Notes under the pieces: generated by a model
Database searches by the model: none
Told to the model about the DNA's origin: nothing
Seen by the model: the letters and a program-made list of their open reading frames with translations, nothing else
In this document: piece after piece, positions 5,330-14,669 of the stretch
Position numbering within the stretch: the stretch's first letter is position 1
Layout: every line of letters begins with the position of its first letter
Assembly (NCBI GenBank): GCA_947365485.1
Contig: CANAXK010000018.1
Location: 1 to 15,200 of the forward strand
Reading direction: 5' to 3'
Length of the DNA: 15,200 bases
DNA from: an uncultured bacterium
GTDB lineage: Bacteria > Cyanobacteriota > Vampirovibrionia > Gastranaerophilales > Gastranaerophilaceae
Program-made: the position numbers and the translations under genes

Positions 5330-7624
5330 ATGTACGATTTTCCCTTTGAGTTAGACGATTTTCAGAAAGAAGCATGCAGCTGTATTTCTGAAGGCAAAAG
5401 CGTTGTAGTTTGCGCCCCGACAGGCGCCGGCAAAACCGTTATTGCCCAGCACGCTATCCACTGCGCTCTTCAGGAAGGGAAAAAAGTCTTCTACACAACC
5501 CCTCTCAAGGCGCTTTCTAACCAGAAGTTCAGCGATTTTTCCGAAAAATACGGGGCTGATAAAGTCGGACTCTTAACAGGTGACTCGTCATTTAACAGAA
5601 GCGCGCAGATTGTGGTTATGACGACAGAAGTTTTCAGAAACATGCTCTACGGCACAAATTTCGGCTCTGTTACTGACAACCTTAAGGATGTAAAATACGT
5701 AATACTGGATGAAGTTCACTACATGAACGACGAGCAGCGCGGGACTGTATGGGAAGAGAGCATTATCTACTGTCCGACAAATGTCCAGATAATCGCGCTT
5801 TCTGCAACAGTTGCAAACGCAGACAAGCTCACAGAGTGGATTAACACAGTTCATTCACGCACAGAGCTTATTAACACAGATTTCCGTCCGGTGCCGTTGA
5901 GGTTCTACTATTTTGACTCATCTCAGCCGAACACGCTGCTTCCGCTCCTCACTCCAAACGGGGTTCTGAACAAGAAAATCAAGCCGGAGAAAAAAGTTTT
6001 CCAGCGCGGAAAAGCTGTGCAGAAGCGCAACATCGTAAAAGATGTGGTTAGAAACCTTCATGAAAAAGACATGCTTCCGGCAATCTATTTCACCTTTTCG
6101 CGCAAAAAATGCGACGAGCAGATGGAAAAATGCGCCTCACTTTGTCTTGTTACCCCGAAAGAGCAGGAAGAAATCAGAAGAATCATAGACGAATACATTG
6201 CTGAAAACCCGTATTTATACAAGAACAAGCACATTGAATACTTGTTACTTGGAGTGGCTTCGCATCACGCAGGACTTTTGCCTGGTTGGAAAGTGCTTGT
6301 AGAAAAACTTTTCCAAAAAGGTTTAATCAAGGTCGTATTTGCAACAGAAACGCTCGCGGCAGGGATTAACATGCCGGCGCGCTCGACTGTCATAAGTTCA
6401 ATCAGCAAGCGCACGGACAGCGGGCACAGAACGCTTACACCGAGTGAGTTTTTGCAGATGTCTGGTCGTGCAGGAAGGCGCGGGATGGATGAAATCGGAT
6501 ACGTTACTATTGTCGGCACGCCGTTCCAGACCCCGGAAGAAGTTGCAGAGCTTGTGTTGAGTGACGCGAATCCGCTTGAAAGCAAGTTTTCGCCGAGTTA
6601 TTCCATGGTGCTCAACCTGCTCCAGAGGTTCTCGCTTGAAGAAGCAAAAGAGCTTGTCTTAAAGAGTTTTGGTTATTATTCGTCTAATTCAAGAATCGAG
6701 CCGCTTCTCCTTGTACGAGACCAGAACAACGAGAAGATATGTGAATGCAATTCTTTCGAGTGTTTCTGCGGAAAATCGAACGAGGATTTGCTTGAATACA
6801 ACAAAATCAGAGACATTTACGTGCAGAACAGGCGTGTATTCAAGACAATCCAGAAGCAGGAGAAGAAAAAGAACAGGCCGCTTTCACCGGAAGCTGCGGA
6901 GTTTGGGCGTCAGACAAAGCAGATGCTGGAGAAAATGCATTCCTACGAGTGTGACACCTGCAAGCTGTTCAAGAAGCACATGAAAAATATTGATGTGCTT
7001 GAGAGGTACCAGTCTAAGCAAAAGGCGCTTGAGAAAGAGATTGAAAAGCAAAAAGACATTTTCTGGAACAAGTTTTTGGCGCACAGGGCTGTTTTGACGG
7101 ACTACAGCTACATAAAAGACGACTATCCGACAGAGCAGGGTATTACAATTTCCCAAATCCGGTCTGAGAACGAGCTATTCATGGCGCGTGTAATTTTTTC
7201 CGGCGTGTTGGAAGGGTTGACGCCTGCGGAGCTTGCAAGTGTTGTTTGCGCGCTCACAACAGAGGATATGAGGGCTGATTTGTATTCGCAGCTTCCGCTT
7301 TCGCCTACCGTTAGAAAGCGTTTGAACAAGATTAAGGACATCAAGCGTGATTTGGACAAGAAACAAAAGCACTATGATGTTGAAGACCCGATGTACATAA
7401 ACGGGTTTTACTCTCCGCTCATTGAAATGTGGGTAAACGGTTCTGAATGGGACGATATTATTGACCAGGTTGACATGGGCGAAGGCGACATTGTAAGGTG
7501 TTTCAAGCGCGTAATCGATGTTTTGCGTCAATTCTGCACGATTTCGAACATACCGGAAGATTTGGTCTTCACAGCACGGGAGGCAATTGAGCAGATTCAA
7601 AGAAGCCCAATAGATGTGGATTAG
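5330..7624 (+). CDS. Ski2-like DEVH-box RNA helicase
   Basis: A 764-residue superfamily 2 helicase. Walker A APTGAGKT is at 29-36, the DEVH box at 127-130, SAT at 158-160, motif V-like ATETLAAGINMPAR at 338-351, and motif VI QMSGRAGRRG at 376-385. The DEVH box, HHAGLLPGWK (312-320) and the C-terminal segment ending MGEGDIVRCFKR (716-727), which matches the end of the DSHCT domain, place it with the Ski2/Mtr4 family, RNA helicases that in eukaryotes feed the exosome; related proteins exist in cyanobacteria and chloroplasts. Its role here is probably RNA unwinding in decay or ribosome maturation, but this is not shown. Between the helicase core and DSHCT lie a Cys cluster (C471, C473, C478, C480; C541, C544) and a Lys/Glu-rich, probably coiled-coil segment (about 545-577). 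A ribosome site AAAGAGGT supports the start. The stop overlaps the XRE gene's stop on the other strand by 3 bases. Confidence 0.92.
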   Translation: MYDFPFELDDFQKEACSCISEGKSVVVCAPTGAGKTVIAQHAIHCALQEGKKVFYTTPLKALSNQKFSDFSEKYGADKVGLLTGDSSFNRSAQIVVMTTEVFRNMLYGTNFGSVTDNLKDVKYVILDEVHYMNDEQRGTVWEESIIYCPTNVQIIALSATVANADKLTEWINTVHSRTELINTDFRPVPLRFYYFDSSQPNTLLPLLTPNGVLNKKIKPEKKVFQRGKAVQKRNIVKDVVRNLHEKDMLPAIYFTFSRKKCDEQMEKCASLCLVTPKEQEEIRRIIDEYIAENPYLYKNKHIEYLLLGVASHHAGLLPGWKVLVEKLFQKGLIKVVFATETLAAGINMPARSTVISSISKRTDSGHRTLTPSEFLQMSGRAGRRGMDEIGYVTIVGTPFQTPEEVAELVLSDANPLESKFSPSYSMVLNLLQRFSLEEAKELVLKSFGYYSSNSRIEPLLLVRDQNNEKICECNSFECFCGKSNEDLLEYNKIRDIYVQNRRVFKTIQKQEKKKNRPLSPEAAEFGRQTKQMLEKMHSYECDTCKLFKKHMKNIDVLERYQSKQKALEKEIEKQKDIFWNKFLAHRAVLTDYSYIKDDYPTEQGITISQIRSENELFMARVIFSGVLEGLTPAELASVVCALTTEDMRADLYSQLPLSPTVRKRLNKIKDIKRDLDKKQKHYDVEDPMYINGFYSPLIEMWVNGSEWDDIIDQVDMGEGDIVRCFKRVIDVLRQFCTISNIPEDLVFTAREAIEQIQRSPIDVD

Positions 7625-7878
7625 TTTAAGTCTTTTAGCATATCATCAAGAGTTTTGTTAACAAGACTCGCTAATATAAAGGCATTTACCAGAGATATGC
7701 TGTGCTTTGCACCCTCAACATTGCTGACATAAGACTTGCTAAACCCTGTTTTAGCTACAACATCGTCCTGAGTCATTTTCTGCTTTGTTCTATACATTTT
7801 GAAATTAAATCCAAAATTTTCGAGAAGTTTTTGTTCGTTCATAATAGCGTTTTTGCCCAGCGTAACAGCTTGTTTCAT
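7621..7878 (-). CDS. XRE-family helix-turn-helix regulator
   Basis: An 85-residue single-domain DNA-binding protein. Residues 36-58 (TQDDVVAKTGFSKSYVSNVE and on) form a clear Cro/CI-type helix-turn-helix, with the preceding FGFNFKMYRTKQKMTQ and the following hydrophobic helices completing the usual five-helix fold. There is no extra ligand or oligomerisation domain. Neither possible start has a good ribosome site: the ATG at 7878 is used here, but the ATG at codon 13 (7842), beginning MNEQKLLENFG, would also give a typical small XRE protein of 73 residues. The gene follows the RWYD-repeat gene by 19 bases and is probably transcribed with it. It may regulate that operon or act elsewhere; no clear operator was found. 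Its stop overlaps the convergent helicase gene's stop, leaving no room for a terminator. Confidence 0.87.
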   Translation of the reverse strand: MKQAVTLGKNAIMNEQKLLENFGFNFKMYRTKQKMTQDDVVAKTGFSKSYVSNVEGAKHSISLVNAFILASLVNKTLDDMLKDLN

Positions 7879-7897: not shown

Positions 7898-8290
7898 CTA
7901 CTCTTCAGGCGCCTCTAGCTCGACGTCATCAACATCTTCTTCTTTCTTGATAATGTCGATAACGTTTTTCGCCATTTCCTTGGCAATAACGCTTCTGGTT
8001 GAGTCAGGGCAGTTTTGAAGCAGGCTGATTGCAGTTCTTAGTGTACCGTCCAGGTCGTACCATCTGCCGTGTTTTGAATCGTCCAAAACATCTTCGGTTG
8101 CTGATACAATATCTTCTACTGATTCGTATTCAGTGCTTGAAAGGTGGTGCTCTGTAATAATCTTAATCAGGTTAAGAGCAACCTTGATTTGGGTCTCGTC
8201 ATCAGACTCCTCAAGGGTTTTCATCGCAGAAGACAAGACTGGGTCTTTGTCATACCAGCGGCGTGCGTTAGTTGTAAATTCTTCCTTCAT
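7898..8290 (-). CDS. RWYD-repeat protein 1 (unknown function)
   Basis: A 130-residue soluble, acidic protein built from two copies of one motif: RWYDKDPVLSSAMKTLEE from residue 11 and RWYDLDGTLRTAISLLQ from 76, each followed by a helical stretch with regularly spaced Ala, Leu and Ile. The second copy includes PDSTR. The same motif occurs twice in the protein at 14346-14669. A linker rich in Glu, Ser and Asp separates the copies, and the C-terminus (117-130) is strongly acidic. There are no membrane segments, signal peptide or catalytic motif I recognise. The start is set by AGGAGG (8295-8300) 4 bases before the ATG; an upstream ATG at 8317 lacks a ribosome site. A good promoter lies 33-61 bases upstream, and an XRE regulator follows by 19 bases. 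I do not know the function; a helical protein-binding role is a guess. Confidence 0.85.
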   Translation of the reverse strand: MKEEFTTNARRWYDKDPVLSSAMKTLEESDDETQIKVALNLIKIITEHHLSSTEYESVEDIVSATEDVLDDSKHGRWYDLDGTLRTAISLLQNCPDSTRSVIAKEMAKNVIDIIKKEEDVDDVELEAPEE

Positions 8291-8322
8291 AAAACCTCCT
8301 GATAAGCTGATTAACAAAGTCT

Positions 8323-8351
8323 ATTATACAATATTTTTTCAGATTTGTAAA
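8323..8351 (-). promoter_or_regulatory. Sigma70-type promoter of the RWYD1-XRE operon
   Basis: On the minus strand, TTTACA (8346-8351) and TATAAT (8323-8328) are separated by exactly 17 bases, matching the consensus at 5 of 6 and 6 of 6 positions. The expected transcript start is near 8316, giving a leader of about 26 bases. It lies just beyond the stop codon of the 67-residue gene upstream. Confidence 0.75.
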
Positions 8352-8356
8352 ACAGT

Positions 8357-8560
8357 TTACACAACAGGTCTTGTAGCAAGTTCAAACATAAGTCGTTTTC
8401 TTAAAGCCAAAGGGAGAGTTTTTGATTCAATATTCAAATCAATCATAGTTATAGACTTTTGCACTGGCTGCTCCGCTCTCCTTACCGGTTGCGCCTCCTT
8501 AAACAGATTTGATATTATCAAATCTAAATCTTTATCGGATGCTTGAGGTTTCTCTATCAT
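8357..8560 (-). CDS. Hypothetical protein, 67 aa
   Basis: A small soluble protein I do not recognise. The N-terminal half is acidic and helical-looking (DKDLDLIISNLFKEA at 9-23), the middle is Arg/Gln/Pro-rich (PVRRAEQPVQ), and the C-terminus (residues 44-67) is hydrophobic and basic with TLPLALRKRLMFEL, which looks like a conserved short helix. There is no signal peptide or membrane segment. AGGA lies 9 bases before the ATG, a moderate ribosome site, and two TATAAT sequences lie 54 and 64 bases upstream. It sits between the response regulator (110 bases upstream) and the RWYD1 promoter and is on the same strand as both. It may be an independent gene or the end of the rmuC-response regulator unit. 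A 137-codon frame runs antisense across it but looks like a shadow. Confidence 0.6.
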   Translation of the reverse strand: MIEKPQASDKDLDLIISNLFKEAQPVRRAEQPVQKSITMIDLNIESKTLPLALRKRLMFELATRPVV

Positions 8561-8613
8561 AATAGGTTTCCTGTCTTACTTGCTAAACTGTTTACTTTGC
8601 TCGCCTCTATAAT

Positions 8614-8629
8614 ATTATAAAGTATTATA
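8614..8629 (-). promoter_or_regulatory. Paired -10 boxes upstream of the 67-aa gene
   Basis: Two perfect TATAAT hexamers on the minus strand (8624-8629 and 8614-8619), 10 bases apart, in a 109-base AT-rich gap. No convincing -35 is found for either. TTGTTACAA (8659-8667), a short odd palindrome, lies upstream. No intrinsic terminator is visible after the response regulator. Confidence 0.3.
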
Positions 8630-8669
8630 TCTAAGCCTGATTTCAAAGTCCCCAAAAATTGTTACAAAA

Positions 8670-9365
8670 CTAAATATTTAACTTATACCCGCCGCCATAA
8701 ATGGTCTCAATGTACTTCTTCCCGTCAGCAATCTTGTCAATCTTGCTCCTCAAATGCCTTATGTGCACCCTTATTGTCTCAACATTGTCGTCCGGCTCAT
8801 ACCCCCAGATATCCTTGAGAAGCCTTGCTCCGGAGACCATGTTCCCATGGTTTTGGAACAGAAGATTGAATATATCAAACTCAATCGGAGTAAGCTTCTG
8901 CACCTTGTCATTAATCTGAACGCTGTACGTTTCAGGAAGAAGCGTGATTTCTTTATATGTAAGCAACTCTCTTACAGCAGTTGATTTTGGTATCTGCTGC
9001 GTACGTTTCAAAAGCGCGCGCACTCTCACAAGCAGCTCGTCAATCTCAAAAGGCTTGGTGAGATAATCGTCAACCCCGAGATTGAACCCGTTAACCTTGT
9101 CATTGAGCTGGGAAAGCGCTGTTAGCATTATAATCGGAGTCTCTGCGATTTCAGGACACTGGCCGATTCTCTGTGCAACCGTAAACCCGTCCACCTCAGG
9201 CATCATAACATCAAGTACAATAAGCGCCGGTGTTTCCTGCTTGGCAAGCGCAAAGCCTTCTACCCCGTTGAACGCCTGAATAACTTCGTAGCCATGAAGT
9301 TCAAGATTTATTTTTACAAGCTCGTTAATCGCTGCATCGTCGTCTATCACAAGAATTTTAGTCAT
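8670..9365 (-). CDS. OmpR/PhoB-type response regulator
   Basis: A two-component response regulator of 231 residues. The receiver domain (1-120) has the acidic pocket D8/D9/D10, phosphoacceptor D52 (in VLDVMMP), T82 and K104 (in LTKPF), so it should be phosphorylated normally. The C-terminal winged helix (about 130-231) has LTPIEFDIFNLL and ends with RVHIRHLRSKI and the YGGGYKL wing, characteristic of the OmpR/PhoB class that binds direct DNA repeats as a dimer. The start at 9365 gives the usual MTKILVIDDD beginning; a GTG four codons earlier is possible. It overlaps the end of rmuC by 8 bases, and AGAAGG for its ribosome site lies within rmuC, so the two are co-transcribed. No histidine kinase is encoded nearby, so its partner is unknown. 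The closest cyanobacterial analogues would be RpaA/RpaB-like regulators, but assignment is not possible here. Confidence 0.93.
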   Translation of the reverse strand: MTKILVIDDDAAINELVKINLELHGYEVIQAFNGVEGFALAKQETPALIVLDVMMPEVDGFTVAQRIGQCPEIAETPIIMLTALSQLNDKVNGFNLGVDDYLTKPFEIDELLVRVRALLKRTQQIPKSTAVRELLTYKEITLLPETYSVQINDKVQKLTPIEFDIFNLLFQNHGNMVSGARLLKDIWGYEPDDNVETIRVHIRHLRSKIDKIADGKKYIETIYGGGYKLNI

Positions 9366-10551
9366 TAGCAAAAACACCTTCTAACTCATCAACACCTTCT
9401 TCTTCCACAAGAAGATTAGCAGGAATCTCTTTTGGAGTATTGATTCCGTATTCTTTTAGCGCCTCAACCTGTGAAAACAGGCTCGGCTTGCTTTTGTTTC
9501 CGCGCTTAAATCTGTTAATTGTTTTGTTGAGCTGGGAAGACACTGTATCAAACTTCTTCTGCACATCCAGAAGGTCGTCACAGAACTGCACAAAAGTCTC
9601 ATACAGATTTGTTCCGGCATTTACGATTCGTGAAACGCTTTCGCACTGTCTCTGTTGTGCAAAGAGCTGGTTTACAAGTCTTATGGTTGTAAGAAGTGAA
9701 GATGTTCCGACAATAATAATATTTGATTTGTAAGCGCTATTAATCAGATCCGAATCCTCATAAAGCAGGTTTACAGAGGTCTCTACAGGCATGTACATAA
9801 GAACAAAGTCGGGCTGGGACAAGTCACCGGCGTTCTGGTAGTTCTTGTTTGCCAAATCAGAGATTCTTTTCTTAACTTCTGCCTTGAAATCTTTGAGTTT
9901 TGAATTGTCCTCAATATAGTCAAGGTAGCTTGTTAGTGTTACTTTTGAGTCAATAATCAAATGTCTGTCGTTTGGAAGATTTATAACAACATCAGGTCTT
10001 ATTACGTGCTCCTCGTCGTCTTTTAGGTTGGCAGAGGTTGTCACAAACTGTTTTGTATAATGAATCCCCTCGTGCATTCCGCAGGATTGCAGGATTGTAT
10101 CAAGAAGGTTTTCGCCGTAAGAGCCTTTTGTGTTCTGGTTTTTAGTAAGCGCCTCAACAAGGTTTTTAGCCTCTTGTTCAATAATTTTATTATTCTTTTC
10201 CAGATTCCCAATTTGTTCGATAATTTTTGTTGTGTTTTCAACGCCTGAAAGGTTAAACTTCTCGACCTTTGCCTTGAATTCTCCGAGCTCCTTTGTTAGA
10301 GGCAGAATTTTTTCTTCCAGAGACTCTCTGTTTTGTTTTCTCAAATCTTCCTGCTCGTTTTTGATAGTCTCATTAGCAAGCTGAACAAAGTCGCGTTTGA
10401 TTATCTCCTGCAAGTTTTCAGAAGTCTCCATCTTAGCCTTGAGTCTGATGAGTTCTTCACGGGCTCCGGCATGTTTTTGCGAGCAAACAAAATAAACAAG
10501 TGCCGCGCCTATTAGAGTTCCCAAAACGAATGATACAGCTGTAATAATCAT
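9358..10551 (-). CDS. rmuC: DNA recombination protein RmuC
   Basis: A 397-residue RmuC-family protein. An N-terminal membrane segment (2-22) is followed by a long coiled coil (about 30-140), then the RmuC domain with GSYGE (143-147), RPD (185-187) and IDSK (200-203), which form the PD-(D/E)XK nuclease-like site; the helical part QLFAQQRQCESV and the C-terminal KRGNKSKPS segment are also usual. In E. coli RmuC limits inversion recombination at short inverted repeats and may act as an endonuclease on DNA near the membrane. Its length and domain order are normal. The start has a strong GGAGG ribosome site. The response regulator gene overlaps its end. The upstream Bax-type gene is cut off by a terminator, so rmuC needs its own promoter or read-through; a TATAAT lies in that terminator's loop (10588-10593). 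Confidence 0.95.
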   Translation of the reverse strand: MIITAVSFVLGTLIGAALVYFVCSQKHAGAREELIRLKAKMETSENLQEIIKRDFVQLANETIKNEQEDLRKQNRESLEEKILPLTKELGEFKAKVEKFNLSGVENTTKIIEQIGNLEKNNKIIEQEAKNLVEALTKNQNTKGSYGENLLDTILQSCGMHEGIHYTKQFVTTSANLKDDEEHVIRPDVVINLPNDRHLIIDSKVTLTSYLDYIEDNSKLKDFKAEVKKRISDLANKNYQNAGDLSQPDFVLMYMPVETSVNLLYEDSDLINSAYKSNIIIVGTSSLLTTIRLVNQLFAQQRQCESVSRIVNAGTNLYETFVQFCDDLLDVQKKFDTVSSQLNKTINRFKRGNKSKPSLFSQVEALKEYGINTPKEIPANLLVEEEGVDELEGVFAND

Positions 10552-10568
10552 TTAATCCTCCTCAACCT

Positions 10569-10606
10569 AAAAAATCAGGCTTCCTTTATTATAAAAGAAG
10601 CCTGAT
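10569..10606 (-). terminator. Intrinsic terminator of the Bax inhibitor-like gene
   Basis: A perfect 10-bp stem, ATCAGGCTTC (10574-10583) with GAAGCCTGAT (10597-10606), followed on the minus strand by six T (10569-10574). It lies 8 bases after the Bax-type gene's stop. The plus strand lacks a T tract, so it acts one way. A TATAAT lies in the loop on the minus strand. Confidence 0.9.
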
Positions 10607-10613
10607 GAAAAAT

Positions 10614-11339
10614 CTATCTGCGGTCAGAAAATTTAGCCAGCAATCTTAATATTTCTATATACAACCAGACCATTGTGACCATAATCCCGAAAGCACCGTA
10701 CCACTCATAGTCTTTTGGAATCATATTCTGCGCCCCGCGTTCAATAAAATCAAAGTCAATAATGAGGTTTAGAGCAGCAATTACAACAATCACAAGACTT
10801 ACTACAATACCTGCATTAGAAGATGAGTTAATAAAAGGAACCTGCATGTGGAAGAAGCTTCCTATGAAATTCACAAGATAAACCACAAATACTGCGAACG
10901 TAGAAATAAAAATAACGCTTCTAAATTTATCAGTACACTTAATCAGCTTTGCTCTATATAAGATTAACATTGAAAACAAAGCTGCAAAAGAGCAGGCAAC
11001 TGCCTGAGAAACAATTCCCGGATACGAAGCCTCAAATACCGCTGAAAATCCGCCAAGAAATAACCCCTCACATGCTGCATAAATAGGAACCAAGTACTTA
11101 TTCTTTGTAAACGAAATAATAAGAGCCAGAACAAAACCTACAAAAAGCCCCCCATAAGTCAACAATTTTGCCAAATCAGTGTAGCCAAGAGTAAAACGTG
11201 ACCAAGAAAAAGCTGCTGTTGCAAGCAAAATAAGGCCTAAAAACGCCGTAATCTGGATAGTCCCGTTAACGGTCATCGGATGACCTTCTAAAATTCGTTC
11301 CTGTTCTGAAAAATTTTGGTTTAAAATCGGATTTGCCAT
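10614..11339 (-). CDS. Bax inhibitor-1/YccA family membrane protein
   Basis: A 241-residue integral membrane protein with a soluble N-terminus of about 25 residues and seven likely membrane segments (about 29-46, 60-77, 84-103, 109-127, 140-158, 175-195, 212-230). The end of the protein, ALNLIIDFDFIERGA then YEWYGAFG and the WLYIEILRLL helix, is the signature of the BaxI_1 group (PF12811) of the Bax inhibitor-1 superfamily, common in Bacteroidota, Actinobacteria and other bacteria. Family members are thought to be calcium-leak or membrane-protease-related proteins, but no role is established for this group. The two Asp in IIDFDFIE are the conserved polar residues of the last helices. The start is supported by AGGAGGG at good spacing, and an extended -10 lies just upstream. 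It is monocistronic, ended by the terminator at 10569. Confidence 0.93.
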   Translation of the reverse strand: MANPILNQNFSEQERILEGHPMTVNGTIQITAFLGLILLATAAFSWSRFTLGYTDLAKLLTYGGLFVGFVLALIISFTKNKYLVPIYAACEGLFLGGFSAVFEASYPGIVSQAVACSFAALFSMLILYRAKLIKCTDKFRSVIFISTFAVFVVYLVNFIGSFFHMQVPFINSSSNAGIVVSLVIVVIAALNLIIDFDFIERGAQNMIPKDYEWYGAFGIMVTMVWLYIEILRLLAKFSDRR

Positions 11340-11361
11340 AATCCCTCCTCTACTTATAATG

Positions 11362-11370
11362 ATTATACCA
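11362..11370 (-). promoter_or_regulatory. Extended -10 promoter of the Bax-type gene
   Basis: Minus-strand TGGTATAAT, a perfect extended -10 (TGnTATAAT), the second of this kind in the window. The -35 region is poor. The transcript start would be near 11355, leaving a leader of about 16 bases that contains the ribosome site. Confidence 0.6.
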
Positions 11371-11383
11371 CATTCTGAAATAT

Positions 11384-11412
11384 TTGCCCCATGAAATTAA
11401 TGTTTTTTTAAT
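11384..11412 (+). promoter_or_regulatory. Candidate promoter of the ABC transporter gene
   Basis: TTGCCC (11384-11389) and TTTAAT (11407-11412) are separated by 17 bases and match the consensus at 4 and 5 of 6 positions. The predicted start near 11419 leaves only about 7 bases before the ATG, consistent with the lack of any ribosome site. Confidence 0.4.
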
Positions 11413-11425
11413 GTAGTATGTATAT

Positions 11426-13153
11426 ATGCTAAGGGATTGCTTTAAGAAATTTTTCACATATTTTGACAGTAACAAAAAAGATTTTGTAAAGTACTCTTTT
11501 TTGTCCTTCATTGTCGGCGTGCTGGAGCTTTTCGGGGTCGCGCTTACCTATCCTTTTGTACTTAAACTACTTTCAAAAGAAGAAACCTCAAAAACCGCAA
11601 TAATCCTCGGACTTGGAATCATCGCACTTTTTATTGCAAAAAATGTCTTCATGATTTTCTACTCATCGCTTCAGGCAAAATTCACAAAATCAGTGGAAGT
11701 CGAAATCAACCTCAAATTCATGCAATATTTTCTTACAACTTCCTATCAGGAATCATCAGCGATTCCTGTTGCAAAAAAAGCCAACATTCTTAATTTTCTT
11801 ATTCCGAATGTTATCAACAATTTTGTTCTGAGGCTTTTGAATCTTAACGTAAATTTCTTTATCTTTGCCCTGATTTCAGCATTCCTTGTGGTGAAATTCC
11901 CGCTTGCAACTATTATTACAGTTGTTTGCGCAGGACTCTTAATCGGGATTCAAAACAGCTTCTTCAAACCAAGGCTTGAGAAGATTTCAAAAAAGGTCAG
12001 CGACGCGTCTGTAATGTACACCCAGCGCAGCAATGAGGTACTTTTGAATATCAAGGGGGTAAAGGTCTCAAACAACGAAAAATACTTTTTTGAGAATTAT
12101 AAATCAGCAATCCTTGATTTTGCAAGAATATCACGTGAAACCCTTTTTCTGAACACAATTCCGCCTTATGTTACAGAGCCGTTTATCATAATCCTGCTTT
12201 TTGTACTGCTTTCAATAATTTCGCTCCAGAATTACGCAGAGCCGGACAAGCTTGTGGCCTCTTTTGCTGTAATCGTATCTGCGATATTCCGCCTTGCGCC
12301 GACAATATCGCGCATTCAGGTTAATCTAAACGGAATAAATTCCGCGCTCCCGATTGTGGATGAGCTGTTTACGGAATACGAAAACTTTGACATGCAAAAC
12401 CTTAAGCCGCTTGATCAAAAAGAATTTATCCCACTTGACTCCTCAATTGAGCTTCGCGGAGTTGGTTTTGAATACGAGCCTGAAAAACCTGTTCTTAAAA
12501 ACATAAGTCTTACTATAAACAAGGGCGAGTTTATAGGAATAGCAGGGCTTTCAGGAGCCGGAAAAACAACTCTCATTGACATCATATCCGGGCTTCTTGA
12601 AATCAAATCCGGAGAAATTTTTATTGATTCAAAAAAATATGATTCGTTTCCTCCGCTCAAAATCGGCTACATTCCGCAGGAAATCAGTCTTATAAACGCT
12701 TCAATAAGAGAAAACGTTGCATTTGGAAGCCCTTCAATTGACGACAATCAGGTGATTGACGCGCTCAAAAAAGCCTGTCTTTACGATTTTGTAATCCAGA
12801 ATTACAAATACGGGATCTACGCCAACCCGTTTGTTGACACAACCGGATTTTCACAGGGTCAGAAGCAGAGGCTTGCAATTGCGCGCGCCCTTTATTCCAA
12901 TCCTGACATACTCATACTTGATGAAGCGACTTCGTCACTCGATTTGAAAACAGAGGATGAAATCTGCAATGTTTTAAACTCGCTCAAGGGAGAAAAAACA
13001 ATCATCGCGATTGCGCACCGGATTTCTACAATCAAAACAGCGGACAGAATTGCATACATAAAAAACGCTGAGATAGTTGATATCGCAGCGTGTGAAGAAT
13101 TATCAAGTATAAATCCTGAATTTAGCGAACTTGTTCGTCTGGCGTCATTTTAG
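11426..13153 (+). CDS. ABC exporter, fused permease and ATPase
   Basis: A 575-residue half transporter of the MsbA/exporter type that would work as a homodimer. The N-terminal domain (about 20-300) has six likely membrane helices. The ATPase domain (about 340-575) has Walker A GLSGAGKTT (374-382), Q-loop Q418, signature FSQGQ (475-479), Walker B ILILDE (495-500) and the switch H531. The signature departs from the usual LSGGQ at two positions, as in some exporters. Polysaccharide-linked oligosaccharide flippases (PglK-like) and lipid exporters share this layout; the substrate cannot be told from the sequence and there is no sugar gene cluster around it. It has no Shine-Dalgarno sequence. It is alone on its strand, and its stop overlaps that of the convergent 50-residue gene. 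Confidence 0.92.
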   Translation: MLRDCFKKFFTYFDSNKKDFVKYSFLSFIVGVLELFGVALTYPFVLKLLSKEETSKTAIILGLGIIALFIAKNVFMIFYSSLQAKFTKSVEVEINLKFMQYFLTTSYQESSAIPVAKKANILNFLIPNVINNFVLRLLNLNVNFFIFALISAFLVVKFPLATIITVVCAGLLIGIQNSFFKPRLEKISKKVSDASVMYTQRSNEVLLNIKGVKVSNNEKYFFENYKSAILDFARISRETLFLNTIPPYVTEPFIIILLFVLLSIISLQNYAEPDKLVASFAVIVSAIFRLAPTISRIQVNLNGINSALPIVDELFTEYENFDMQNLKPLDQKEFIPLDSSIELRGVGFEYEPEKPVLKNISLTINKGEFIGIAGLSGAGKTTLIDIISGLLEIKSGEIFIDSKKYDSFPPLKIGYIPQEISLINASIRENVAFGSPSIDDNQVIDALKKACLYDFVIQNYKYGIYANPFVDTTGFSQGQKQRLAIARALYSNPDILILDEATSSLDLKTEDEICNVLNSLKGEKTIIAIAHRISTIKTADRIAYIKNAEIVDIAACEELSSINPEFSELVRLASF

Positions 13154-13302
13154 ATGACCCTGACTTTGTCCATAAGTTTAGTGATTTTTTCCCTAAAAGC
13201 AGGGTCTACCGGACTTGAAGTATAGCCGTCAAGTTTCACGGCCTGTTCGCGTTGAATCAAATCTTTTTCAAGCATAGCCAATTTGCGCATTGCAATATTC
13301 AT
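13150..13302 (-). CDS. Small hypothetical protein, 50 aa
   Basis: A short gene with an excellent ribosome site: AGGAGG (13309-13314) exactly 6 bases before the ATG. The protein starts MNIAMRKLAMLEKDLIQ, a charged amphipathic helix, has a central DGYTSSPVDPAF turn region (residues 25-36) and a basic second helix ending KLMDKVRVI. It looks like a folded two-helix polypeptide, has no signal peptide or membrane segment, and is free of cysteine. I do not recognise it. Its stop shares bases with the stop of the convergent ABC transporter. The AT-rich stretch upstream (13315-13375) has several possible -10 boxes, for example GATAAT (13324-13329), but no good -35. The strong ribosome site and sensible composition are why I believe it is real; its function is unknown. 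Confidence 0.65.
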   Translation of the reverse strand: MNIAMRKLAMLEKDLIQREQAVKLDGYTSSPVDPAFREKITKLMDKVRVI

Positions 13303-13399
13303 AATTAACCTCCTGAGATACCTATTATCTTACTTTATCTTACATATATATAAAGTATTTTTTCTCAGAAAAATTGCGTTTTTATTAAGAAATGTTAAT

Positions 13400-13501
13400 G
13401 GGCAGCTGAACAGCTATGAGAGGCTGCGGGATTTGTCAAATTCTTGTTGTTAAACCCTCACCAAGAATTTCTAACATTCGCGAAGCTCATGTTGAAATTC
13501 T
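13400..13501. repeat. Nested inverted repeats in the 251-base gene-free spacer
   Basis: The spacer 13303-13553 contains no gene I can support except promoter sequence for the 50-aa gene. AAATTCTTG (13438-13446) is the exact complement of CAAGAATTT (13462-13470). That second copy also takes part in another hairpin: AGAATTTC (13464-13471) and AACAT (13473-13477), with one bulged T, pair with ATGTT (13489-13493) and GAAATTCT (13494-13501). The two hairpins exclude each other. A further GCAGC/GCTGC pair flanks 13402-13427. No T tract follows on either strand. Confidence 0.7.
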
Positions 13502-13502
13502 G

Positions 13503-13522
13503 TCCTCCCCCTATGGAGAGGA
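13503..13522. repeat. Second GC-rich REP-like palindrome
   Basis: CCTCCCC (13504-13510), loop CTAT, GGAGAGG (13515-13521), with one flanking T-A pair and one internal C-A mismatch at the same position as in the palindrome at 3938-3956. It lies 32 bases from the end of folE2 and could stabilise or process that transcript's 3' end. Confidence 0.55.
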
Positions 13523-13553
13523 GAAGGCTCGCTAATTCTTCACAGCCACTCCC

Positions 13554-14345
13554 CTATCCCTCTGACTGATAAGCCCATGCTGAGTGGTTGTGGATGCTCT
13601 CGATTGATTCACACTCAACCTCAAAAGAATCAATAATTTCATTGTTTCTCAAAAGCAGCACAACATCGCGCAAAACATCTTCCACGAACTTAGGGTTCTG
13701 GTAAGCCTTCTCTGTTACAAACTTCTCGTCTTCTCGCTTCAAGAGCGAATATAGCTCGCAGGACGAAGATTTTTCGATATCCTTAATCAAATCCTCTAGC
13801 CAGATGTGGTCTTCCTCAGGATAAGTAACTTTCACAGAAACAATCGCCCTCTGGTTGTGCGCACCAAAATCAGAAATCTCCTTTGAGCACGGACAAAGCG
13901 TTGTCACAGGCACCTTTACACCTAGAAAGAATCTGTACTCTTCATCTTCTTCACCGTAATTATCAAGAATGCCTTCAAAAAAGCAGTCGTAGCACATCGG
14001 CGCCGAAATCCCTGTTACAGGAGCTTTTTTATCGATAAAATATTTAAATTCAAGCTTCAAATAACCGCACTTTGCATCAAGCTTTTCAACAATTGCTTCA
14101 ACGCAACCTTTTATATCAACACCGAGAGTATTCTTGCTCCTCCACTCGTTCAAAACCTCGACAAATCGTGACATGTGGGTACCTTTGTAGTGCGAAGGCA
14201 AAGAAACTCCAGCTGTTGCATTTGAATAAATCACAATATCGTCCTTATCCTTACGCTGGATACAAAGCGGGAGTTCAATCCCTTTTATTCCGACTTTTTG
14301 AATATCAACACCGCGCATGTCGGTCTGATTTTGCACATCCTTCAT
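13554..14345 (-). CDS. folE2: GTP cyclohydrolase FolE2 (type IB)
   Basis: Catalyses GTP to 7,8-dihydroneopterin triphosphate plus formate, the first step of tetrahydrofolate and queuosine biosynthesis. The 263-residue length and conserved blocks identify the type IB family: VSLPSHYKGTHMSRFVEVL (47-65), CPCSKEIS with GAHNQR (151-166), DEKFVTEKAY (206-215) and SIHNHSA at the end. C151 and H163 correspond to the metal ligands C147 and H159 described for Neisseria FolE2. This form uses various divalent metals and replaces the zinc-dependent FolE in many bacteria when zinc is scarce; no Zur box was found here. The ATG directly abuts the stop of the RWYD-repeat gene (TAG then ATG), so the two are translated from one message. 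aroQ, of the shikimate route that feeds folate via chorismate, lies divergently beyond that gene. Confidence 0.95.
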   Translation of the reverse strand: MKDVQNQTDMRGVDIQKVGIKGIELPLCIQRKDKDDIVIYSNATAGVSLPSHYKGTHMSRFVEVLNEWRSKNTLGVDIKGCVEAIVEKLDAKCGYLKLEFKYFIDKKAPVTGISAPMCYDCFFEGILDNYGEEDEEYRFFLGVKVPVTTLCPCSKEISDFGAHNQRAIVSVKVTYPEEDHIWLEDLIKDIEKSSSCELYSLLKREDEKFVTEKAYQNPKFVEDVLRDVVLLLRNNEIIDSFEVECESIESIHNHSAWAYQSEG

Positions 14346-14669
14346 CTAGATTTCGACCCCTTCAAAAGTTTTCTGCTCTAATGCAATAAGAAGTTTTAGC
14401 GCAGCGACTCTTTGAACCTTTACAGGCGCGTTTCTCAAAAGCTCAACAGCCTTAAGCATCATTGGGTCGTTATCATACCAGCGATTACCTTTGCCCTGAT
14501 ATGTGTTAATAATATCGTAAACATGTTCAATAACTTCGCCAGCAACCTGTTCCTGCAATTGGAGCATAAAATTAGCAGCCTCGCTCCTTGTATCATCAGG
14601 AGAAAGTCTCAAGAGTTCTAAAGCTTCTTTTAGTATAGGATCTGAATCATACCAGCGTTTGTTAATCAT
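14346..14669 (-). CDS. RWYD-repeat protein 2 (unknown function)
   Basis: A 107-residue soluble protein with two copies of the motif seen in the protein at 7898-8290: RWYDSDPILKEALELL from residue 5 and RWYDNDPMMLKAVELL from 63, each followed by a helix rich in Ala, Leu and Gln; the first copy has SPDDTR. The spacing between copies is 58 residues, against 65 in the other protein, and it lacks that protein's acidic tail. There is no signal peptide, membrane segment or catalytic motif. The start has GAGG about 6 bases upstream. It directly precedes folE2 (TAG adjoining ATG), so it is made along with it. Whether it has to do with folate synthesis or is only co-transcribed is unknown, since the paralogue lies beside an XRE regulator instead. 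Confidence 0.87.
   Translation of the reverse strand: MINKRWYDSDPILKEALELLRLSPDDTRSEAANFMLQLQEQVAGEVIEHVYDIINTYQGKGNRWYDNDPMMLKAVELLRNAPVKVQRVAALKLLIALEQKTFEGVEI

Follow-up and report, generated by a model that had tools for sequence, protein, structure and literature searches.

The window analysed here, a stretch of 15,200 nucleotides from an uncultured bacterium of the order Gastranaerophilales (class Vampirovibrionia), encodes two small paralogous proteins, A and B, each with two copies of the motif RWYD. These four copies had already been observed in a sequence-only reading of the window, and the observation is confirmed together with the positions of both proteins and their RWYD residues; both genes are encoded on the minus strand, and translation of the plus strand runs into stops. 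The features are as follows:

7621–7878, minus strand: XRE/HTH_3 gene directly downstream of A, with an HTH_3 match
7898–8290, minus strand: protein A, 130 aa, acidic, RWYD at residues 11 and 76
7925–8065, minus strand: repeat 2 of A (residues 76–122)
8135–8260, minus strand: repeat 1 of A (residues 11–52)
8357–8560, minus strand: 67-aa ORF, by eye like the C-terminus of the ~300-aa protein found ahead of A in relatives
13554–14345, minus strand: folE2, the conserved partner gene of B; its first base is the next after the B stop codon
14346–14669, minus strand: protein B, 107 aa, RWYD at residues 5 and 63, immediately upstream of folE2
14373–14483, minus strand: repeat 2 of B (residues 63–99), RWYD and predicted helices 69–80 and 83–99
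14550–14657, minus strand: repeat 1 of B (residues 5–40), RWYD and predicted helices 11–22 and 25–40

In A and B, the repeat unit comprises about 38 residues, RWYDxDP being followed by two helices, and each protein consists of two units. The second copy of A reads RWYDLDG, with G replacing P, and PD(S/D)TR occurs in two copies (A repeat 2 and B repeat 1), as had been read from the sequence. The model of B is confident and helical (50-sequence alignment, pLDDT 89.5, pTM 0.81), with helices predicted at residues 11–22, 25–40, 44–56, 69–80 and 83–99 and RWYD at 5–8 and 63–66. In both modelled hairpins of B the first helix begins six residues after the R, the helices are 12 and then 16–17 residues long, and the loop between them has two residues. 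For A, the model is of modest confidence (20 sequences, pLDDT 68.9, pTM 0.56) and has helices 17–28 and 31–52 after R11 and 82–92 and 96–122 after R76. All four copies are thus predicted to share one secondary-structure register, the main helix beginning six residues after the R, with the modest confidence of the A model applying to its two copies. The helix that had been expected after RWYD is present in the models; the single tail is not, as every repeat is predicted to form a two-helix hairpin.

Profiles of 70 first and 70 second repeats from which RWYDxDP had been removed matched each other with 97.1% probability and a score of 35, compared with a maximum score of 14 for column-shuffled controls (n = 50), and the repeats are therefore homologous beyond the motif. 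The rows were chosen by the pattern R[WFER][YH][DE], through which 70 of the 80 non-fused proteins entered, and the R is invariant in the profiles because this pattern fixes it. Some divergent members exchange the W (RFYD, REYD, RSYD) and retain R, Y and D. The RWYD residues could be either a binding surface or an element that holds the fold; W replacement fits either. In the 1.63-Mb host genome, a degenerate DNA pattern for RWYDx(D/N) occurs seven times, always within genes of the family, versus no occurrence of the same pattern read backwards as a control. Together with the match between repeat profiles and the 1,069 homologues of B (E ≤ 0.01), this indicates that the motif is more than chance.

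As the sequence-only reading had supposed, no named domain was found: A and B have no convincing family match in Pfam, NCBIfam or PDB sequences, the best Pfam (E 0.025) and NCBIfam (E 0.011) hits all lying far below cut-off. Up to E 1, neither protein has an ARM, HEAT or ReoM/IreB match in Pfam, and neither contains an HTH_3 domain; a SinI-type Pfam match is likewise missing from A, B and the three HTH-RWYD fusions scanned. When 50 members were compared with Pfam, scattered weak matches alone were obtained among 25 of 50 Pfam families listed, and one of the 50 members matched an ARM-type model (E 0.011). The family profile scores against the engineered helical-repeat proteins 4rv1 and 4hxt, with no single stretch passing alone, a Foldseek search gave no match, and inspection revealed no evident active-site pattern. 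The RWYD family is real, old and abundant and has no family in the libraries searched. What is new is the protein family in this sense; its mode of action may resemble that of known small regulators.

Five RWYD genes were found in the host genome (84% complete): A, B, one between murA and mfd, one beside a Na+/H+-antiporter-family gene and one after rnc. All 37 genomes in a sample of relatives were positive, with 4–11 copies each. The earlier suggestion of a small repeat domain, present in several paralogues and without a named family, is upheld. In a sample of the class, 70 of 146 genomes were positive (1–15 copies; class families f1, f9, f14 and f15), and the negatives listed belong to f8 and f10–f13 (76 negatives, 56 of them outside this list); a wider profile run on one f12 genome recovered no family member. 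The phylum sample gave 131 positives among 292 genomes, all in the window's own order (141 of the negatives outside the list), and its negatives presumably include photosynthetic cyanobacteria; the profile could miss more distant relatives.

A tree of 80 proteins from 13 genomes (three fusions of 83 proteins omitted), with few columns and some long branches, separates clades E (8 order rows, support 100/97), F (6 rows, 100/99), A (11 rows, 97/90, f9 and f14 included) and G (6 rows, 98/92) from a group of B and C (21 rows, 100/97), within which C is nested (99/96) with members from f9, f14 and f15; clade D is resolved less securely (13 rows, 94/91). A and B sit in distinct old clades, far apart in the tree, so that their presence within 7 kb does not reflect a recent duplication; the notion of a motif duplicated and spread as a local event is not supported. 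Judged from the stretches covered, at least 4 of 14 A loci in the genus likewise have B within ~3–7 kb. Tandem RWYD genes are found at L061 and L067 (genome G058) and at L177 and L183 (genome G022), so that recent local duplications do occur in other genomes. Some clade-E relatives are longer, at 180–239 aa, with an extra C-terminal region (L193, L195, L201, L205 and L206 in G073 of f9; L068 in f15); they share a recurrent S-G-x-x-V/I-L-x-L-Y/H-K/Q-like linker before the second repeat, and the extra region had no Pfam match in L193, L201, L205 and L206.

The usual order of genes in the genus is rmuC, a response regulator, a ~300-aa protein and A, the response regulator lying upstream of A in 11 of 14 genus loci (L262 differs, and two run into contig ends). 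Both rmuC and the response regulator are present in the window; in place of the ~300-aa protein there is only the 67-aa ORF, which has no Pfam match, and the remainder is missing. Of the different neighbours to which the sequence-only reading had drawn attention, folE2 beside B proved to be conserved, and the XRE gene beside A did not, as it turned up at none of 14 related A loci. This also weighs on the idea that A and the XRE gene, which are adjacent and co-oriented in the window and of which the latter matches HTH_3, form a toxin–antitoxin-like pair. As orthologues of A are moreover present in most sampled families of the order as well as in f9 and f14, we consider such a pair highly improbable.

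The paralogues keep close company with particular genes. All 78 named loci that had room have clade C directly after murA, often with an overlap of 14–17 bp (ORFs as called; starts are mechanical and gap lengths therefore approximate). The count derives from 80 loci, 73 scored by script and five (L097, L107, L120, L136 and L143) read from the gene list, and leaves out L112 and L150, which had no room; since the loci were fetched with a clade-C profile, it speaks for clade C alone. A clade-C profile has 2,515 homologues at E ≤ 0.001. This arrangement with murA was seen in ten class families (f1–f7, f9, f14 and f15). No single family supplies the gene above murA in more than 13 of 69 loci, or the gene below C in more than 12 of 70; with the outer genes shuffled in this way, murA and C behave as a pair of genes that move together. 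The 80 named records covered for the murA-linked member, the best of 541, carry the labels Gastranaerophilales, Vampirovibrionales, Caenarcanum, Melainabacteria, Cyanobacteria or simply bacterium, and a few of these 80 bear labels that look wrong (Heliobacteriaceae, Muribaculaceae, Clostridia). Outside the window's order, a DUF309-like gene (one Pfam-checked) follows clade C at L050, L051, L052, L078 and L187, which come from f9, f14, f15 and a Vampirovibrionales record. Four clade-C relatives of 113–121 aa (P0227, P0248, P0255 and P0287) are named "cell division protein FtsI/penicillin-binding protein 2" by one source, which at this size looks like a misannotation.

Clade B was detected in 43 of 117 genomes of the order (weakest B 147 bits versus 108 for the next match), and folE2 follows it directly on the same strand in 42 of the 43, the exception being G026. 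The gap measures −35 to +18 bp in all 30 loci read, and no one family accounts for more than 8 of 30 and 7 of 28 of the outer neighbours on the two sides. Conversely, folE2 is present in 112 of the 117 genomes; 69 of these 112 keep it without B, which is therefore not an obligate FolE2 subunit, and at all 12 such loci read the genes beside folE2 are different ones. B is absent from all five genomes without detected folE2, several of which are incomplete. Neighbour names in the reference genomes were partly read by eye, with one example per named family checked in Pfam. Five of six clade-F loci in these genomes have acpS immediately downstream of the RWYD gene. For clade A, ETF-QO/FixX is immediately upstream in 5 of 8 loci from the order and in none of three from f9/f14. 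For clade E, metK comes downstream in 4 of 8 loci from the order, at distances of up to ~580 bp, and at three loci a SpoIID-like gene follows the clade-D gene. Several genomes have lost the links of clades A and E, that of clade A being gone from the window's genus.

It is possible, if on the unlikely side, that the RWYD hairpin serves chiefly as a stable scaffold and that its paralogues have unrelated jobs, with gene links that reflect co-transcription without contact. The links of clades A and E do vary between genera, folE2 persists without B, and the retention of R, Y and D in divergent paralogues is what a fold element would show. Against this, murA–C and B–folE2 hold together although both outer flanks are shuffled.

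In several families a single repeat is fused behind an HTH_3 domain. Three such fusions (L176, L185 and L204) carry HTH_3 above cut-off, and their Pfam matches at E ≤ 0.01 are to HTH families alone. Searching with the RWYD part of a fusion returned 78 proteins, 48 with HTH Pfam domains and 30 without a Pfam domain; all 48 HTH-bearing matches (database clusters) have exactly one RWYD, and 29 of the 30 Pfam-less matches have two exact motifs (E 2e-10 to 3e-8). As the fusion query matches free proteins, fused and free repeats share descent. The fusion occurs in 24 of 117 order genomes (f2–f5, f7 and two genera of f1), and all 24 carry RWYD; a free member at E ≤ 1e-20 accompanies it in 23 of them, G417 being the exception. 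In 22 of 24 loci the fusion gene and that for 5-FTHF (5-formyl-THF) cyclo-ligase are arranged divergently (of the other two, one lies at a contig end and one truly differs), and a gene of a corrinoid adenosyltransferase family comes next after the fusion in 9 of 24. At L289, L290 and L292–L298 the adenosyltransferase follows HTH-RWYD and the cyclo-ligase is divergent, a setting that hints at one-carbon or cobalamin regulation.

Such fusions suggest an analogy with SinI and SinR, which pair through a helix pair each (PMC3163267): RWYD hairpins might pair in four-helix bundles, and the free proteins, usually of two repeats, might thereby control the one-repeat HTH-RWYD regulator, to which their repeats are homologous. 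We rate this as unlikely, given that HTH-RWYD is present in only 24 of 117 order genomes and that the three scanned fusions match only HTH families. The fused form was found in none of the six genomes of the window's genus, and free and fused forms do not occur together in the window's genome, so that SinI-like pairing cannot alone explain A and B.

The tight and often overlapping gene pairs and the aromatic and Arg residues of the motif would also fit RWYD proteins that bind the mRNA or DNA of their own operon and autoregulate it. This appears quite improbable in view of their charge: of 56 order members, 46 have a net acidic charge and seven a positive one, with a median pI of 5.2 (in the full set of 80, 57 are negative and 19 positive). 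Acidic charge, hairpin repeats, the HTH fusion and the two-gene units make protein docking a better fit than nucleic-acid binding.

Building on the observed family, its repeats and old clades, the tight gene pairs and the HTH fusion, we therefore favour, tentatively and with somewhat less than even confidence, a reading of the RWYD proteins as small accessory hairpin docking proteins, each a gene-dedicated regulator of the neighbouring enzyme. The RWYD repeat would be an alpha-hairpin docking module of this bacterial class, a nearly invariant RWYD lead-in with two helices, and each two-repeat protein would be encoded, and presumably co-transcribed, with a single specific core enzyme, which would be FolE2 in the case of B, MurA in that of clade C and AcpS, MetK or ETF-QO in others. 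Physical binding of the partner would probably tune its activity, stability or placement. Partner choice might reside in the linkers and helix faces particular to each clade, with the RWYD part that all share either fixing the fold or meeting a common target. The murA–C, B–folE2, acpS, ETF-QO/FixX and metK pairs, the helical model of B and the HTH fusions count for docking regulators; folE2 without B and the lost links of clades A and E count against them, and adjacency alone can persist without contact. A lineage-wide control network, in which this one multi-copy module couples MurA (cell wall), FolE2 and, through the HTH version, 5-FTHF cyclo-ligase (folate), MetK (SAM), AcpS (acyl carrier protein) and ETF-QO (electron transfer) to a shared hub via the RWYD face, is distinctly unlikely; if true, it would be a growth-tuning system undescribed in other bacteria.

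This old, undescribed two-repeat family is present in non-photosynthetic relatives of cyanobacteria, and the several small proteins that stay next to one core metabolic gene each, such as murA or folE2, hint at an unknown layer of enzyme control. Clade C, following murA in ten families, is a concrete candidate for a MurA partner, and the paralogues offer a comparative handle, one module being set beside different enzymes.

Among known systems, ARM and HEAT proteins resemble the family in their repeated helix pairs, and 4rv1 and 4hxt score with its profile; the RWYD proteins differ in their lead-in, in having only two repeats and in the missing ARM/HEAT Pfam (A, B) and Foldseek matches. XRE HTH_3 regulators are related through the fusions, which are HTH_3 proteins, whereas the C-terminal repeat of the fusions has no described family and the window's RWYD proteins have no HTH. 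In SinR/SinI of Bacillus subtilis, an HTH regulator with a C-terminal helix pair is controlled by a small helix-pair protein that shares the pairing surface (PMC3163267). Unlike SinI, free RWYD proteins have two repeats and lie beside metabolic genes, the three fusions have no SinI match, and the HTH form is missing from the window's genus. Dedicated controllers of MurA are known from other bacteria, one example being ReoM of Listeria, a small protein that controls the degradation of MurA (PMC7286690). A and B share no sequence match with it, and other RWYD clades are found beside other enzymes. Clade C, encoded directly after murA, would be the family's putative MurA partner.
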